The translations under genes were made by a program, and so were the position numbers. Under the pieces are notes generated by a model. It saw nothing but the letters and a program-made list of their open reading frames with translations. It ran no database searches and had not been told where the DNA came from. Source: Candidatus Fermentithermobacillaceae bacterium (lineage in GTDB: Bacteria > Bacillota > Sulfobacillia > Fermentithermobacillales > Fermentithermobacillaceae). From it: 33,017 bases of DNA. Shown here in pieces: positions 13,338-21,545 of this stretch (position 1 is the stretch's first letter; each line of letters opens with the position of its first letter). The DNA lies in contig DULO01000024.1 in the NCBI GenBank assembly GCA_012840345.1, positions 1 through 33,017 on the forward strand, in the 5' to 3' direction.

Positions 13338-14120
13338 ATGAAGATCATCCCCGGAAACATCTTCGGCTTTTGGCTTTTCGTCGTTGCGTCAGCCGTAATC
13401 GTCTACGTCATGAATCTCTCAGAGAAAGGAAAACTCAAAGTAACTCTGCGGCCAATAGCCGGTCTTGACGCGTTGGAAGAGGCGGTTGGAAGGGCGACCG
13501 AGATGGGGAGGCCCGTGCACTTCTCTCCCGGCCTGGGCGACATCATAGGCACGTCGGCCCCCGACACCCTTGCCGCGCTTCAGATTCTTTCCTACGTGAC
13601 AGATCTATCCGCGAAGTACGACGCGCGGCTGCTGGTAACTATCCGCATGCCCAACGTTTTCCCTCTCGCTCAGGAGTTGGTTCGCACAGCTTACTCCATG
13701 GCGAACAAGCCTCAATCCTATAAGGAAGACACGGTCCGTTACGTGTCCAGCGACCAGGACGCCTACGCCGCCGGCGTAATTGGCCTCATGCACCAGGAGA
13801 AGGTGGCGTCCAGCATCCTGGCCGGGCTGTACATGGGTGAGGCTCTCTTGATAGCCGAGTCCGGTGCCAGCTTGGGCACGATGCAGGTGGCGATCACCGC
13901 GTCTATCACGCAGATCCCGTTCTTTGTCGCTGCCTGCGACTACACCATCATCGGCGAGGAACTCTACGCCGCGGGAGCGTACGTCTCCGGGAATAAGGCG
14001 CGTCTTGGGGCGATAGCCGGACAAGACTGCATCAAGCTGGCCGTCATGGCCATCATCGTCCTCGGGACAATAGTGACCTCCCTAGGCAGCAACTTCGTCC
14101 AAGATCTCCTGACTAAGTAG
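13338..14120 (+). CDS. DUF6754 membrane protein, first gene of four-gene module
   Basis: A protein of unknown function that I recognise as DUF6754, a family found in bacteria and archaea. One N-terminal transmembrane helix (about 8-26) is followed by a soluble alpha/beta region (about 35-205) and a second helix near the C-terminus (about 228-248). Conserved-looking blocks are RPVHFSPGLGDIIGTSAPDTLAAL, the SSDQDAYAAGVIGLM stretch, the GLYMGEALLIAESGASLGTMQ stretch, and PFFVAACDYTIIGEELYAAGAY. No catalytic motif is evident to me. AGAGG precedes the ATG. Three more membrane proteins follow with gaps of 12-17 bases, so the product probably works in a complex with them. The 295-base gap upstream separates it from the pilus genes, and I found no clear promoter or terminator in it. 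Confidence 0.85.
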   Translation: MKIIPGNIFGFWLFVVASAVIVYVMNLSEKGKLKVTLRPIAGLDALEEAVGRATEMGRPVHFSPGLGDIIGTSAPDTLAALQILSYVTDLSAKYDARLLVTIRMPNVFPLAQELVRTAYSMANKPQSYKEDTVRYVSSDQDAYAAGVIGLMHQEKVASSILAGLYMGEALLIAESGASLGTMQVAITASITQIPFFVAACDYTIIGEELYAAGAYVSGNKARLGAIAGQDCIKLAVMAIIVLGTIVTSLGSNFVQDLLTK

Positions 14121-14137
14121 GAAAGGAAGGTGGAACC

Positions 14138-14797
14138 GTGCGCAAAGAGTTGCCCTTGGCCATCACCTTTGTCGTGGCTCTTATCGCCTTGCTCTCGGGC
14201 GTCGTACAGGGACCTATCCCGGGGCTTGGCGTTTCAATAGGCGATATCTACGGTAACTACATAGGCAAGTGGATGACGGTTGTATCCGCGTTTGCCTTGT
14301 GTCTGGCCTCAGTCAACTTGATACTGGTCCATGGAAGGGCAGTTGCCCGCAAGCGGTCCCAGGATTGGATATACAGCGCGATCTTGCTGGGGACTCTGGT
14401 AGTGTACGCGCTGTTTAGAACCTATGTCGAGCTCAACCCTGCCGACGAAGCAGCGCGCGCCAACTACTCACTGATTTACGACTACATCCTGTCGCCGCTG
14501 ATGTCCGGTCAATGGGCCTGCCTGGCTTTCTACGTCGGTTCGGCCTCCTACCGTGCTTTTAGGGCGAGAAACCTGGAGGCGACGGTCCTGCTGGTCTCGG
14601 CCATCGTGGTCATGCTGGGCGCCGCCCCGATAGGTTCGCTTCTATGGGACCAGTTCCCCGCCATCCAACAGTGGCTTCTCAACGTACCGAGCATGACCGG
14701 GCAGCGCGCCCTACTGTTAGGTGCCGCCCTCGGTAGCTTCAGCACAAGCTTGCGTACGCTCCTCGGAATAGAGCGTGGGCACCTTGGCGGGATGTAG
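14138..14797 (+). CDS. Unknown six-helix membrane protein of DUF6754 module
   Basis: Not recognised. The product (219 residues) is mostly hydrophobic with about six predicted membrane helices (roughly 7-25, 46-66, 80-95, 118-138, 148-168, 190-207). Loops are short, with one longer polar loop (about 97-115) containing ELNPADEAARANYSLIYDY. The GTG start is preceded by AAGGAAGGTGG. It lies 17 bases after the DUF6754 gene and 12 before the next gene. No transporter signature or charged-residue pattern that I know is visible. It could be the channel-like or scaffold part of a complex with its neighbours; that is inference. Confidence 0.8.
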   Translation: MRKELPLAITFVVALIALLSGVVQGPIPGLGVSIGDIYGNYIGKWMTVVSAFALCLASVNLILVHGRAVARKRSQDWIYSAILLGTLVVYALFRTYVELNPADEAARANYSLIYDYILSPLMSGQWACLAFYVGSASYRAFRARNLEATVLLVSAIVVMLGAAPIGSLLWDQFPAIQQWLLNVPSMTGQRALLLGAALGSFSTSLRTLLGIERGHLGGM

Positions 14798-14809
14798 GGA
14801 GGTGTTGGC

Positions 14810-15646
14810 ATGAACTGGTTCCAAAAACTGCAGAAAGTTGACAGCAGGGTCATCTATTATCTGATGCTCGCTGTGACCATAATCCCTTTGCTGCGCCCCA
14901 TCGGGATTCCTATGAAGGTTAGCCCGATGGTCAGGGCGGTCTATGACATCATCGAAAGCCTCGACCCGGCCAAAGACGTGGTTTTGGTCTCGATAGACTA
15001 CAGCCCGGGCGCCGGCCTTGACGCCGACGTGTCCCCGCGAGTGGTCATCGACCACCTAGTCCAGCGCGGAATCAAATGGGTCGGCATATCCTTTGACACC
15101 ACTGACGGCCCGATGATGTGCAACAGGATAATCGCCGGCTTCGAGGAGAAGGGTTACGAGTACGGGAAGGACTTCGTCAACCTGGGCTACGTGGCCGGAG
15201 GAGAGAACGCCATCCGCCAGTTCGCCCTGGACTGCACCATCGTCACCCAGGACATCCGGGGCAACGCGACGTCCAGTCTCCCGGTGATGCAGGGCATCAA
15301 GACCATCAAGGACTTCGCGTTCGTCCTTCAGTTCTCAATGAGTACGCCGGAAGCCTGGATCCGTCAGGTGGTCGACCCCATGGGCGTCAAGTTCGCTCTG
15401 GGCACCGTCACGGTGTCAGTTCCCTCGGTTGTGCCGTACTACAACTCAGGCCAGTTGAAGGGTCTCATGGGAGGTTTGTCCTCGGGCGCTCAGTACGAGC
15501 ATCTCCTGAACCAGCCGGGACGCGGCCTCGCCATGATGGACGCCCAGTCCATGAGCCACCTGCTCATCATCATCTTCATCGTCCTCGGCAACATCGGGTA
15601 CTTCATGACGAGGGAAAAGAAATCATCCGGCGGTTACAAGAACTGA
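14810..15646 (+). CDS. Unknown bitopic membrane protein with alpha/beta domain
   Basis: Not recognised by name. It has an N-terminal helix (about 14-33), a soluble core (about 35-245) and a C-terminal helix (about 250-268), the same layout as the DUF6754 protein two genes upstream. The core alternates strands and helices in a Rossmann-like manner: VVLVSIDYSPGAG, VVIDHLVQRGIKWVGISFD, DFVNLGYVAGGENAIRQFALD, DFAFVLQFS. It ends with an unusual block VPSVVPYYNSGQLKGLMGGLSSGAQYEHLL (given here only as a landmark, about 205-234). A sensing or ligand-binding domain held at the membrane by both ends is a reasonable guess. GGGAGGTG precedes the ATG. Confidence 0.8.
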   Translation: MNWFQKLQKVDSRVIYYLMLAVTIIPLLRPIGIPMKVSPMVRAVYDIIESLDPAKDVVLVSIDYSPGAGLDADVSPRVVIDHLVQRGIKWVGISFDTTDGPMMCNRIIAGFEEKGYEYGKDFVNLGYVAGGENAIRQFALDCTIVTQDIRGNATSSLPVMQGIKTIKDFAFVLQFSMSTPEAWIRQVVDPMGVKFALGTVTVSVPSVVPYYNSGQLKGLMGGLSSGAQYEHLLNQPGRGLAMMDAQSMSHLLIIIFIVLGNIGYFMTREKKSSGGYKN

Positions 15647-15658
15647 GGAGGTGACGAC

Positions 15659-16279
15659 ATGAACGTTTCGACAAACCCCTGGCAGTGGATCGCGGTAGCG
15701 TGCATTTTCGGCATGTGGTCGCTTCCGCTGTTTAAAGATAACCCTGTGTATCGAGTCTCACAGGCCGTATTCGTCGGCTCGTGCGCCGGCCACGCAATCG
15801 GAGTGGCCATCGGAAACATCAAGAACTACGGGCTGGTCCCGCTGTTTGAGGGCAAAGTGGACCTGATCATCCCGGTAGCGTTGGGCATCTTGCTGTACAC
15901 CCGGTTCTTCCCGCGGATAAGCTGGCTGAGCCGCTGGCCCGTGTCTTTCATGGTAGGAGTCGGCGTCGGCCAGTCCATCTACACGTCGGTTAGGTCCCAG
16001 GTCATCAACCAGGCCGTCGCAGCTATAGTGAAGTTGCCGGCAGAGACCGTCGGCGCTACGCTGAACAACCTGGTCTCTCTGCTCGGGCTCTTGGCGGTGC
16101 TGACGTACTTTGTGTTCACGATTCCGCAGAACAGGGTGGTCAAGCCCATCGCCCAGGCCGGACGCTGGCTTGTGATGATTACCTTCGGTGTGGGCTTTGG
16201 CAACGTGGTAGCGGGCCGTATCTCGGTACTGCTCGGCGAGCTCCAGACCATCTTCGGGAACTGGTTGGGGATGATTTAG
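15659..16279 (+). CDS. Unknown six-helix membrane protein, last gene of module
   Basis: Not recognised. The product (206 residues) has about six hydrophobic segments (roughly 10-25, 32-52, 65-83, 92-110, 138-158, 167-185) and Gly-rich helices (VGSCAGHAIGVAIG, FMVGVGVGQSIYTSV, FGVGFGNVVAG). Such Gly patterns suit tight helix packing in a multimeric membrane assembly. An almost complete anti-16S match, GAGGAGGTGA, precedes the ATG by 5 bases, the strongest ribosome site in the window. It ends the operon. Its last codons run into the tandem-repeat region that fills the gap before the convergent surface-protein gene. Confidence 0.8.
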   Translation: MNVSTNPWQWIAVACIFGMWSLPLFKDNPVYRVSQAVFVGSCAGHAIGVAIGNIKNYGLVPLFEGKVDLIIPVALGILLYTRFFPRISWLSRWPVSFMVGVGVGQSIYTSVRSQVINQAVAAIVKLPAETVGATLNNLVSLLGLLAVLTYFVFTIPQNRVVKPIAQAGRWLVMITFGVGFGNVVAGRISVLLGELQTIFGNWLGMI

Positions 16280-16560
16280 TTAGGGTTTAGTGAGATTTGG
16301 TCAGGATTTGATCAAGCTGGCTGTGGGTGATGTTAGGCGACAGTCGGACTGGTTGTGATGATTGTCGGCAGCCAGCCCAGCAATTGGAGTGGTCGTGAGT
16401 GTCGTCAGCTTACAGTCAGGCCGACTGTGGGCATCGCTAGGCGGCAGTTGGACTGGTTGTGATTGTCGGCATACAACAATTGCAGCGGCTGCGAGTGTTG
16501 CCGGCTGGCAGTCAGACCGGTTGTGAGTGTTGCTAGGCCACAGTCATGCTGACTGCGGAG
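16280..16560. repeat. Degenerate tandem repeat, 33-bp-like unit (GTGAGTGTTGC...AGGC)
   Basis: Diverged copies of a unit built around GGTTGTGAGTGTTGCTAGGC and a following CAGT.AG motif fill the gap after the four-gene operon. The same family, better preserved, forms the array at 21235-21545. No gene is visible in 16280-16783 apart from this repeat and the hairpin at 16652-16679. Confidence 0.7.
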
Positions 16561-16651
16561 TGCCGCTGGACTCGGATGAATGCCTGCGTTGCGCTCCAGT
16601 GAATACCTGAGTCACGCTCCAGACAAGCAGGATAAGCGAGACAAATAGGAG

Positions 16652-16783: not shown

Positions 16784-18067
16784 CTACCGCCGTCCGCGCT
16801 TGCCGCGCTTCTTCGTCGCCAAGCCGAGACCCAGCAACGATACTCCGATACCGTACATCATCGTCGCCGAGATACCGCCGGTCGGTGCCAAAGGCGGCTC
16901 CTCTTCCTCGATGACTAGCTCGTACCAGAACGTGTAGGTAGTGTTGCTCGCCCCGAACGTGTGAGTGTACGAGGCCGGTTCGCCTTCTCTCAACTCATAC
17001 CCCTCGATATCGGGGGCAGTGACTACTTGAGTCGCTCCGACGTAGCCGCTGTGAGTGGTCGGCGTGCGGAGATCCTGATTCGTGCCCCATTCCCTGTAGT
17101 ACACGGTCAGGAGGCTCGATGCCGGCGGGGGAGGAGGCGGAGGAGGCGTAGGCGCTGTGTACTTGTTGAGTACTGGATCTGCAGTGCTCTCTTCGCCGGC
17201 CGAGACCCACACGAACAGCTGCTCTGGGTTCGTCCATTGCCAGTTAGCAGGGACGTCTTCCTCAAACACCTCGTACAAGCCGGGCATGAGACCGGTGAAC
17301 GTGTGGGACTGGCCAATCCCAAGGTACACGTACTGAGGCTCGTCAACCTCAGTCAAGGCTACATCCTCGACACGCCTGATACCGATCTTGAACGTCTGAG
17401 TACCCGAGTAGGGGTCGCCGCTGTTGTCGAGTTCCTTCGTGACGACGAGGCTGCCGGTTTCGGGTTCAGGTACGGGAGCGGTGTATTTGTTGGTAACGGT
17501 TACAGTGAACTCGTACTCGCCATCTGCTCCAACTTCTACTTCCTGCTCTGAGTAGGATACGGTCCAGCCTTCGCCGGGGCTTGTCTCAGAAACCGTGTAG
17601 GTTCCCTCCGCAAGACCGGAGAACGTAACGGAACTGCCGGCCGCGACCGTCTGGGTTTCAGAATAGTCGTTGGGTCCAGTGAGAGTAACCTCAAATGTAC
17701 TTATGTCGTGCGGGTCGGAGTCTGAGTCGAGCACCTTTTCAACGGTGATGCTGCCCAGTTGGGGCTGCGGAGCGGTGTAGCAGTTGGTGATGGTTACGCT
17801 ATCGCTACCTCCCGCTGCGACAGTCACCTCGGTCTTCGAGTAAACCGGAGCTGACCAGTTGGTGCCCGGGTGAGTCTCGGCCACAGTGTAGGTACCGGGA
17901 ACAACGGTGAATACAACTTTGCCTTCCTCGCCCAGAGCCAACTCATCGCTGGTATAGGTTTTGAGAGGAACGACCCATAGAACCACAAATAAGGAAGCTG
18001 AAAAGGTCGAAACTGAAACGGTCGAAGCGGAAACACCATCGAGAGCGCATGAGAGCGTATGCAACAT
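16784..18067 (-). CDS. LPXTG-type surface protein with Cna-B/SpaA-like repeats and MucBP
   Basis: A cell-wall-anchored adhesin-like protein. Three related beta-sandwich repeats, each ending in N.YTAP (about 40-101, 105-195, 200-305), contain PGTYTVAET/EGTYTVSET/PGLYEVFEE motifs typical of DUF5979/SpaA-type pilin domains. A run of nine prolines follows, then a MucBP-like domain (about 319-388). The C-terminus is a sorting signal: LAPTGG (about 394-399), a 20-residue hydrophobic stretch, and the basic tail KKRGKRGRR. The start is doubtful: the N-terminal 38 residues derive from a short degenerate repeat (17985-18060), the first repeat domain looks cut, and no convincing signal peptide is present. 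AAAGGG precedes the ATG at 18067; a TTG at 18070 also exists. No sortase gene lies in the window. Confidence 0.8.
   Translation of the reverse strand: MLHTLSCALDGVSASTVSVSTFSASLFVVLWVVPLKTYTSDELALGEEGKVVFTVVPGTYTVAETHPGTNWSAPVYSKTEVTVAAGGSDSVTITNCYTAPQPQLGSITVEKVLDSDSDPHDISTFEVTLTGPNDYSETQTVAAGSSVTFSGLAEGTYTVSETSPGEGWTVSYSEQEVEVGADGEYEFTVTVTNKYTAPVPEPETGSLVVTKELDNSGDPYSGTQTFKIGIRRVEDVALTEVDEPQYVYLGIGQSHTFTGLMPGLYEVFEEDVPANWQWTNPEQLFVWVSAGEESTADPVLNKYTAPTPPPPPPPPASSLLTVYYREWGTNQDLRTPTTHSGYVGATQVVTAPDIEGYELREGEPASYTHTFGASNTTYTFWYELVIEEEEPPLAPTGGISATMMYGIGVSLLGLGLATKKRGKRGRR
17985..18060. repeat. Short degenerate repeat at the 5' end of the surface gene
   Basis: Variants of GAAACGGTCGAAGC recur three or four times and are translated into the Ser/Thr/Val-rich start of the surface protein. 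The repeat sits where a signal peptide and the first half of the first domain would be expected. Confidence 0.5.
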
Positions 18068-18205
18068 CAAACCCTTTGGCAGATTAGAAGGTTGCCGGGG
18101 AGTTGGCTTTGCTGCCCTCTCGACGGCTATGTCATACTCCGGAGGATTGTCTCATGTCAGGGTGGCTTTCTTGGGTTCGCGTAAGGGTAGTTGAAGGGGT
18201 GTCGT

Positions 18206-18615
18206 GTGAAAACCATACAGCACCTGCAGTCCGCTCGACGCCGGAGATTCATCCGACGCGGCCTGTTAGTCCAACACCTGCAGTCAGTCCGTCGGCTGGG
18301 GTTCGTCCGGCGTCGCCTGTTCATCCAGCATCAACAGCTCGTCCACCATCCTCCATCCGTCAAACGCCGGTGACCCGGCAACTGTTCGCCCTGACCCTCA
18401 TCTTCGCTCTTATCTCTGCGACCCTTGTCCTGCCTAGGCTGGCGTCTGCCGCTCTGTTGCCGTCCGAGTGGGCTGAGACCGAACTGGAACTAGCCCGTCA
18501 GTGGGGATTGTTGAGCGACCTGTACGGCTCAGCGTCATCGTCAGCATCAGCATCCGGCGGTCAGGTTAGTCGGGGGTCGGATGGCCAAGTCGCCCCCTCG
18601 TCGTACACCACTTGA
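18206..18615 (+). pseudogene. 5' part of SLH/M15 peptidase gene, out of frame with the rest
   Basis: This stretch appears to hold the start of the following peptidase gene, broken by two frame changes. A GTG at 18206 with GAAGGGG 6 bases upstream begins an Arg-rich reading frame that stops at 18373 and is made largely of a degenerate repeat. A neighbouring frame (from GTG 18370) then encodes a good signal peptide (RQLFALTLIFALISATLV...LASA) and the piece WAETELELARQWGLLSDLYG, which resembles the second half of an SLH unit. That frame runs through a TCA/GCA trinucleotide-rich stretch (18530-18556) and stops at 18615. The next SLH unit continues in the first frame. Sequencing error, decay and repeat-driven phase switching are all possible. 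Confidence 0.6.
18215..18365. repeat. Degenerate repeat in the N-terminal coding part of the SLH peptidase
   Basis: CACCTGCAGTC/CACCTGCAGTCAGTCCG and CGCCTGTTAGTCCA/CGCCTGTTCATCCA are repeated with variation, giving the paired sequences QHLQSARRRRFIRRGLL and QHLQSVRRLGFVRRRLF in one frame. Expansion here would explain the first frame change. Confidence 0.6.
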
Positions 18616-19591
18616 TGTCCTGACCACCTTCTCCGACTGCGAGGCCATCAGCGACTGGGCAAGGGACGCCGCCCGGTACATGGTCGAAAGGGGTATTTTG
18701 AAGGGAGCCGACGGCGGGTTCCTCCCGAAGGAGAACTGCACCTTTGAGCAGGGAGTGGTTCTCGCCAAACGGGTCTACGAGAGATTCGCGGACGAACAGG
18801 TCCTGAACAACGCGCCGATGATGCGAAGCGGGCTCTCGGCTCCTGTGGTGACCCGACCGGCGGCGAGTCCGGCCGACGTGTCCATCCAGAAAGGTGTGAA
18901 GCTGGAGTGGCAGGCCATGCCCGGCGTATCCCAGTACCTGGTCCGGATCGACTACCCCGGAGCGACTCAGACCCAGAGCAGCTACGTGAACAGCACCGAG
19001 TTCCAGGTTCAACCTCAGCGGGGTAAGTCTCTGAGCCCGGGACGTCACACTGTCTCGATAGCGGCTGTGGACGGCGACCACAACGTCATCTCGCCGTTTA
19101 CGAGGGTCTCTCTGAACCTCCGCAACGATTCCGACTACTACTTTGACTTCAAGAGCGCCGCCGAAGCGGAGAGATACATGACGACTGTGACGATAAGGGT
19201 ATGGGACTTTGACGCGAACGGGCAGAAGGTGACCCGGACGAAGTCCCTGACGGTCCACAAGTGGGTCGCAGACGACGTCGTGGCCATCTTCGAGGATATC
19301 TATAACGGCCCTGAGAAGTTCCCTATCCATACCGTCCACGGGTACCGGCCGGGTTCCAGCGGCGAGCATCCCAAAGGGACAGCCATCGACATCAACCCCA
19401 ACGAGAACTACGAGGTCTGGCTGGACGGCCGCGTCGGCGTGGGCTCTTTCTGGAAGCCTGGTGAGAACCCGTACTCAATCCCTTTGGACGGCGACGTCGT
19501 CCGGGCTTTCCGCGCCCGAGGCTGGGGATGGGGAGGCACCGACTGGAGGAGCAAGCGGGACTACATGCACTTCTCGTATTTTGGGACGTAG
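18581..19591 (+). CDS. SLH-domain protein with M15-type D-Ala-D-Ala carboxypeptidase domain
   Basis: The main body of a probably secreted peptidoglycan peptidase. An SLH unit (about 15-65: FSDCEAISDWARDAARYMVERGILKG) would tether it to the cell wall. A beta-sandwich segment (about 90-180) follows, then a C-terminal M15C/VanY-like metallopeptidase domain. Zinc ligands are visible as HPKGTAIDI (H263, D270) and MHF (H330), matching the H..G.A.D...W...D.MHF pattern of the family. The ATG at 18581 is only the first start in this frame and lacks a well-spaced ribosome site. The natural start and signal peptide lie upstream in another frame (see 18206-18615), so this ORF alone would not be exported. 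Confidence 0.78.
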   Translation: MAKSPPRRTPLDVLTTFSDCEAISDWARDAARYMVERGILKGADGGFLPKENCTFEQGVVLAKRVYERFADEQVLNNAPMMRSGLSAPVVTRPAASPADVSIQKGVKLEWQAMPGVSQYLVRIDYPGATQTQSSYVNSTEFQVQPQRGKSLSPGRHTVSIAAVDGDHNVISPFTRVSLNLRNDSDYYFDFKSAAEAERYMTTVTIRVWDFDANGQKVTRTKSLTVHKWVADDVVAIFEDIYNGPEKFPIHTVHGYRPGSSGEHPKGTAIDINPNENYEVWLDGRVGVGSFWKPGENPYSIPLDGDVVRAFRARGWGWGGTDWRSKRDYMHFSYFGT

Positions 19592-20930: not shown

Positions 20931-21234
20931 GAATCCGTGAGGGGCCCCTTGAGACTCCTTTGACCCGGTTGAGTCTTGATGAGTCAACAGTTCCTTCTGG
21001 TCGATGCCGATAGGTCCGACAGCTTCAGTATGCCACAATATGGAATAAAATGGAAGATGGTTGGTCGAGCATTGGGGTCTTGGTGGGCTCTGATTCGACC
21101 GTTTGAGGGATGAAGACTCACCAACCGACACAGGAGGGTCGACTTGTCACCCTTAAGTGTCGGAAGGCAACCGGTAGGTCACGGTGTGAGTACTGGCTGG
21201 CGGTGATTAGTTGCGACCGCGATTACAGCCTGGC

Positions 21235-21545
21235 AGTAGTTAGACTTGCCGTGAGTGTGGCTAGGCAACAGTTAGGTCGGGTAGTAACAGTTGCCAGGCA
21301 GCAGTTAGGCCGGGTCTTAAGTGTTGCCTGGCAGTAGTTAAGCCGAGTCGTAAGTGTTGCCAGGCTGCAGTTAGGTCGGGGTGTAAGTGTGGTCAGGCAG
21401 CAGTTAGGTGGGGGTGTAAGTGTTGCCAGGCTGCAGTTGGGTCGGGTCGTAAGTGTGGCTAGGCAGCAGTTAGGTGGGGCGGTGAGTGCGGCTAGGCTGC
21501 AATTAGGTCGGGGTGTAAGTGTTGCCAGGCACCAGTTAGCTCAGA
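21235..21545. repeat. About nine copies of a 33-bp tandem repeat
   Basis: The unit is built on GTAAGTGTTGCCAGGC followed by GCAGTTAGGTCGGG; copies differ at several positions (GGTCGG/GGTGGG, GCTGC/GCAGC). There are no spacers between units, so this is not CRISPR. The remainder of the gap 20931-21665 shows no gene. Related degenerate units occur at 16280-16560. Confidence 0.88.

Follow-up and report, generated by a model that had tools for sequence, protein, structure and literature searches.

We describe here a cassette of four genes, A, B, C and D, which recurs in the same order in bacteria and archaea and is accompanied by a second unit that consists of an ATPase and a protein termed c7. 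The module is thus larger than the four genes first noticed in a stretch of 33,017 nucleotides from a Candidatus Fermentithermobacillaceae bacterium, here called the window. A first-pass annotation had suggested that these genes encode one stable hetero-complex without recognised counterpart, a view supported by the conserved order of the cassette and by the co-occurrence of its genes in a survey of 299 genomes of the phylum, and there is good support for the conclusion that A, B, C and D would form one obligate membrane complex served by a dedicated ATPase. Three of the four subunits have no family name, and the cassette is strictly conserved and carried by many little-studied lineages, with up to about ten copies per genome; lineages with so many copies probably depend on it. 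The link to a GlmL-like ATPase is a first handle on the mechanism and makes the complex testable.

The operon of the window comprises the following genes:

13338-14120, forward strand: subunit A, DUF6754 (260 aa); N-terminal helix, Rossmann-like core predicted to be cytoplasmic, C-terminal helix
14138-14797, forward strand: subunit B (219 aa, GTG start); six hydrophobic segments, predicted N-in/C-in, conserved SAAYRAFRAR loop
14810-15646, forward strand: subunit C (278 aa); N-terminal helix, Rossmann-like core predicted to lie outside, C-terminal helix with conserved MDAQSxxH...GN
15659-16279, forward strand: subunit D (206 aa); six hydrophobic segments, predicted N-out/C-out, Gly/Phe-rich last helix, conserved EH starting helix 2

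The coordinates of the open reading frames give intergenic gaps of 17 (A-B), 12 (B-C) and 12 bases (C-D), in agreement with the 12-17 bases noted at first, and purine-rich ribosome-binding sites are visible before B (GGAAGGTGG), C (GGGAGGTG) and D (GAGGAGGTGA). A consensus scan of the coding strand found no sigma-70-type promoter upstream of the operon. Tandem Repeats Finder detected no tandem-repeat arrays inside 13338-16279, while other open reading frames of the window do contain arrays, confirming that the operon is free of the repeats that invade other genes here. Degenerate minisatellite-like repeats, seemingly alike (around GTAAGTGTTGCCAGGCAGCAGTTAGG), lie directly downstream of the operon at 16280-16600, where they were recognized by eye, and at 21228-21539. 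The reverse strand at 16784-18070 encodes a surface-type protein of 428 aa in which, as judged by eye, repeated segments are SpaA/Cna_B-like and a C-terminal LAPTG-helix-basic tail resembles a sortase signal; the forward-strand gene at 18581-19591 encodes a protein that combines an S-layer homology domain with a D-Ala-D-Ala carboxypeptidase (M15) domain. Subunit A is a clear member of DUF6754 (PF20539, E 1.4e-81, 273.9 bits against a gathering cut-off of 27). Neither B, C nor D matches a Pfam or NCBIfam family above cut-off, leaving DUF6754 as the only family name, as first noted, and no family is consistently matched by the homologues of B (n=60), C (n=90) and D (n=57). Sequence searches of solved structures with all four subunits gave nothing significant, and a faint match of A to methylthioribose-1-phosphate isomerase covers fewer than 30 residues. 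DUF6754 or PF20539 is not mentioned in the literature searched, to which most subscription papers did not belong, and a description elsewhere is possible. Some of the cassette families may be listed, without a function, in FESNov-type catalogues, which collect unknown gene families of uncultivated taxa (PMC10849945).

A scan of GTDB species genomes with A found more than 500 relatives, and 80 loci of these were analysed. Complete A-B-C-D sets, in order and on one strand, account for 100 of 120 cassette runs (median gaps 17, 12 and 10 bases), and most of the incomplete runs are broken by contig ends or by the simple gene caller. Co-occurrence in the same order across bacteria and archaea, which had been suggested as a test, is therefore observed in 100 complete cassettes, a recurrence far beyond chance. 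At three loci A stands alone, with C and D located elsewhere in those genomes, and tandem sets of two or three cassettes are found at ten loci. The bacterial carriers among the loci analysed span over ten phyla, including Bacillota, Armatimonadota, Zixibacteria, Cloacimonadota, WOR-3/Stahlbacteria, Eisenbacteria, Neomarinimicrobiota, Latescibacterota, Edwardsbacteria, Planctomycetota and Acidobacteriota, and the archaeal loci belong to two groups, Methanomethylicota and Bathyarchaeota. Within the Bacillota they come mainly from Candidatus Fermentithermobacillaceae, the family of the closest relatives among the matches listed. The four genes occur in nearly identical sets of genomes: among 299 genomes of the phylum, 25 have A, 24 have D, and B and C are each present in 23. 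The sets disagree in two genomes, where A is fragmentary; one of these has D as its only further subunit, and the other lacks B, C and D. The genome of the window itself has ten copies of A, each with B, C and D where the contig permits. In a tree of the concatenated subunits these paralogues are scattered among cassettes of other genomes, indicating that this genome has retained several old types of cassette in parallel. The distances of the subunits correlate over the cassettes of this genome and one relative (r 0.76-0.85, with none of 2000 Mantel permutations as high); among the eight complete paralogues of this genome alone, the correlation is clear for C and D and otherwise poor. An origin as phage, plasmid or other mobile module was rejected, since C has no match among phages and A none among plasmids.

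The second unit became apparent in genomes with a single copy of the cassette, where c14, a small protein of about 100 aa, is encoded before the cassette, and a GlmL/MutL-type protein followed by c7 after it. The GlmL/MutL-type protein, the partner ATPase of about 600 aa, has the GlmL/MutL fold (PF13941, E 1.4e-128, 430 bits against a cut-off of 27), and its ASKHA-type ATP-binding motifs, read by eye, are intact (DCGSTTTK, GVDIGGATTD, GSGGALSHAPR); it has no close solved relative. The only similarities of c7 (about 370 aa) are to barrel-sandwich (lipoyl/biotinyl, RnfC_N) and KOW-like segments, and a sequence search against solved structures gave matches of the lipoyl/biotinyl type alone. A strong match to c7 is present in 24 of the 299 genomes of the phylum, and 23 of these have A, which is found in 25 (Fisher p 5e-31, phylogeny not corrected for). 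Mostly in other phyla, 40 of 43 genomes with A contain a strong c7 match as well. The genes of the ATPase and c7 are adjacent in 18 pairs, with a median gap of 17 bases, and in several lineages the pair directly adjoins A-B-C-D. In Cloacimonadota and Zixibacteria the two proteins are naturally fused (928-1067 aa), with one further fragmentary case; the fusions are located as follows:

L188, 9844-12825: ATPase-c7 fusion
L189, 5208-8411: ATPase-c7 fusion
L190, 5211-8237: ATPase-c7 fusion
L191, 7006-9792: ATPase-c7 fusion

Besides its fusion, L188 has a separate c14-ATPase-c7 set. The ATPase and c7 are near-obligate partners of the cassette, often encoded elsewhere in the genome. A metagenome-assembled genome named Symbiobacterium thermophilum (L057), a cultivable relative, also has a cassette together with its ATPase-c7 pair. 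In the genome of the window they lie on contigs other than that of the window, as one c14-ATPase-c7 set and two more ATPase-c7 pairs, and ten copies of A compared to so few sets would fit a shared energiser. Two exceptions were found: the single-contig genome G095 has a divergent A-B-C-D and a negligible c7 match, and G009 has the ATPase and c7 and no cassette. As for the surroundings of the partner genes, the divergent one of the two ATPase-c7 pairs of the window's own genome (L139, 15669-18553) lies beside ABC transporter and regulator genes and not beside a cassette. The c14-ATPase-c7 sets of several Bacillota families (L140, 2474-6105, in the window's genome; L148; L152) are flanked by a conserved small membrane protein and also by a gene for peptidase S58, peptidase C26 or a PLP enzyme.

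AlphaFold2 gave confident models for both A and C (pLDDT 94.4 and 95.5), and the two are alike, with two helices, six alternating strands and helices and a long C-terminal helix. They show the layout of helix, alpha/beta core and helix that had been proposed for the two bitopic proteins, and the six hydrophobic segments each in B and D fit the two six-helix proteins of the same proposal. No close relative of A or C is found in the PDB, and in Foldseek no match to A had an E below 1e-3, while C had four that did so marginally; all had low TM-scores. Structural alignments to CODH/ACS epsilon cover that protein from end to end (with A 37-218 at Z 9.5, with C 35-233 at Z 8.9), and those to transhydrogenase domain III do the same for that domain, so that A and C share a Rossmann arrangement. 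Z scores to DHS-like NAD/FAD-binding Rossmann domains reach 12.1 for A and 9.4 for C, values within the range of many unrelated Rossmann proteins. Profile comparison of A with C yielded two in-register alignments, covering the first strands and the last helix (p 0.006 and 0.023 at full length), with scores that shuffled controls almost never reach, and a motif Qxxx[KH]x9G is found in the last helix of both families (A, 42 of 59 sequences; C, 72 of 90). A and C are probably ancient paralogues, a relationship that is suggestive by sequence alone and not proven; sequence comparison gave no support for a common ancestry of B and D. Counts of lysine and arginine flanking the helices predict the core of A to be cytoplasmic in 59 of 59 homologues and that of C to lie outside in 86 of 90. 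B and D are likewise predicted to be oppositely oriented: all 60 homologues of B come out N-in, whereas of the 57 homologues of D 44 come out N-out, 6 the other way and 7 tied. The paired symmetry that had been suggested is supported, with two bitopic and two polytopic subunits, but each pair is predicted to be inserted in opposite orientations.

What could such a complex do? Two Rossmann-type subunits on opposite sides, two six-helix subunits and many cassettes compared to fewer ATPase units are features most like those of an energised transporter or coupler. Our best guess is accordingly a transporter or energy coupler driven by ATP, albeit a tentative one that may well turn out otherwise. 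A and C would present the same Rossmann-type fold on the two membrane faces, the core of A in the cytoplasm and that of C outside, and B and D would be the probable transmembrane body. On the cytosolic side, the GlmL/MutL-like ASKHA ATPase might dock on A together with c7 as one separate unit, and ATP use might switch the conformation of the complex so that a small molecule or ion is moved across B/D; C would be the outer gate or receptor. A smaller number of ATPase units would then serve several membrane cassettes that can replace one another. Several observations speak against transport. No substrate, binding protein or transport domain was identified, the neighbouring genes vary, neither B nor D matches a transporter family, and to our knowledge GlmL-like proteins have no role in transport. 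Furthermore, G095 and G009 uncouple the cassette from c7, and the subunit distances among the paralogues of this genome correlate poorly apart from C and D.

The predicted topology could also suit a cell-envelope sensor or scaffold, in which C and FN3-type parts of A would sense or hold something outside and A would relay to ATPase-c7 inside. Ahead of the first helix, A orthologues from many phyla have a stretch resembling a signal peptide, followed by FN3-like or propeller-like domains, an arrangement that is independent support for the orientation of A and, together with the charge statistics placing C outside and A inside, is what one would expect of a sensor, as are the inconstant catabolic and transport neighbours. 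However, the A of the window is without this outer domain, two conserved six-helix subunits exceed the needs of a sensor, and no signalling domain recurs beside the cassettes. We regard this function as doubtful.

A membrane-bound enzyme complex, with the GlmL-like ATPase as reactivating chaperone and a cofactor or substrate bound by the Rossmann cores of A and C, is rather unlikely, although several features point in its direction. GlmL/MutL is an accessory protein of glutamate and ornithine mutases, thought in the case of GlmL to be a reactivating chaperone of glutamate mutase, and the PF13941 match makes the partner ATPase a relative of it. The folds of A and C resemble the cofactor-binding Rossmann domains of Sir2, transhydrogenase domain III and CODH/ACS epsilon. 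Rossmann domains bind ligands at the carboxyl ends of their strands, and in the model the most conserved residues of A (G65, E168, T187, Q192, G206, E207 and E208) lie near the C-terminal ends of strands, a position that might correspond to such a ligand-binding site. On the other hand, the ATPase stays below the curated NCBIfam cut-offs for GlmL (236 against 475 and 176 against 204 bits), and in the clusters examined neither a mutase nor a cofactor-binding protein is a recurrent neighbour of the cassettes.

The gene neighbourhood does not single out a substrate. Amino-acid and peptide catabolism genes beside several cassettes looked suggestive at first, but the commonest flanking family, the amidohydrolases, makes up 4 of 47 neighbours, and peptidases abound in a control sample of the same genome as well. 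With neighbours that change from cassette to cassette, in a genome rich in peptidases overall, no substrate is claimed, and the search for a cofactor or substrate link in other genomes that the first-pass annotation had recommended led to no constant neighbour. The same annotation had left room for a link to the pilus. That the complex is an accessory of the type IV pilus encoded upstream is hardly credible, since the pilus genes, although they end just 295 bases upstream of A in the window, are missing beside the closest orthologous cassettes (67-74% identical to that of the window) and no pilus gene recurs near other cassettes, where 100 loci gave one weak prepilin-peptidase match.

None of the searches made here found a description of this putative four-protein membrane machine, and in line with the initial impression no characterised complex emerged as its counterpart; we also know of no characterised system with these parts. 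DUF6754 (PF20539) covers subunit A as a name and says nothing on the other three subunits or on the ATPase partner. A classical ABC or ECF transporter was rejected, as no subunit matches an ABC ATPase family and the conserved unit contains no such ATPase; ABC-like ATPases lie near only 10 of 100 loci and in varying positions. Group II ECF transporters resemble the present system in their working, with several interchangeable membrane modules and apparently fewer shared ATPase units, but here no ABC-type ATPase pair, EcfT or S-component was found and the ATPase is of the ASKHA class. The barrel-sandwich domain of c7 is faintly like RnfC and NqrA, yet the match to RnfC_N is weak (16.8 and 26.8 bits against 25.6), the iron-sulphur and NADH domains of RnfC are absent, B and D have no Rnf match and no cassette protein matches an Rnf/Nqr subunit, and an Rnf complex was rejected because this single weak domain resemblance in c7 is all that points to it. 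A and C resemble CODH/ACS epsilon, transhydrogenase domain III and Sir2 in their Rossmann-type arrangement, but at an identity of 6-14% and middling Z scores, and A and C carry membrane anchors on both sides. It is also conceivable, though unlikely, that the system is a new class of ATP-powered membrane machine, in which a GlmL-like ATPase of the actin/Hsp70 (ASKHA) fold and its barrel-sandwich partner would drive transport or energy coupling through a pseudo-symmetric four-subunit membrane complex, with the Rossmann subunits A and C as inverted paralogues on opposite sides. With GlmL/MutL (PF13941) the partner ATPase shares the fold, with intact ASKHA-type motifs, whereas it is longer, falls below the curated cut-offs, is paired or fused with c7 and is tied to a membrane cassette instead of a mutase.
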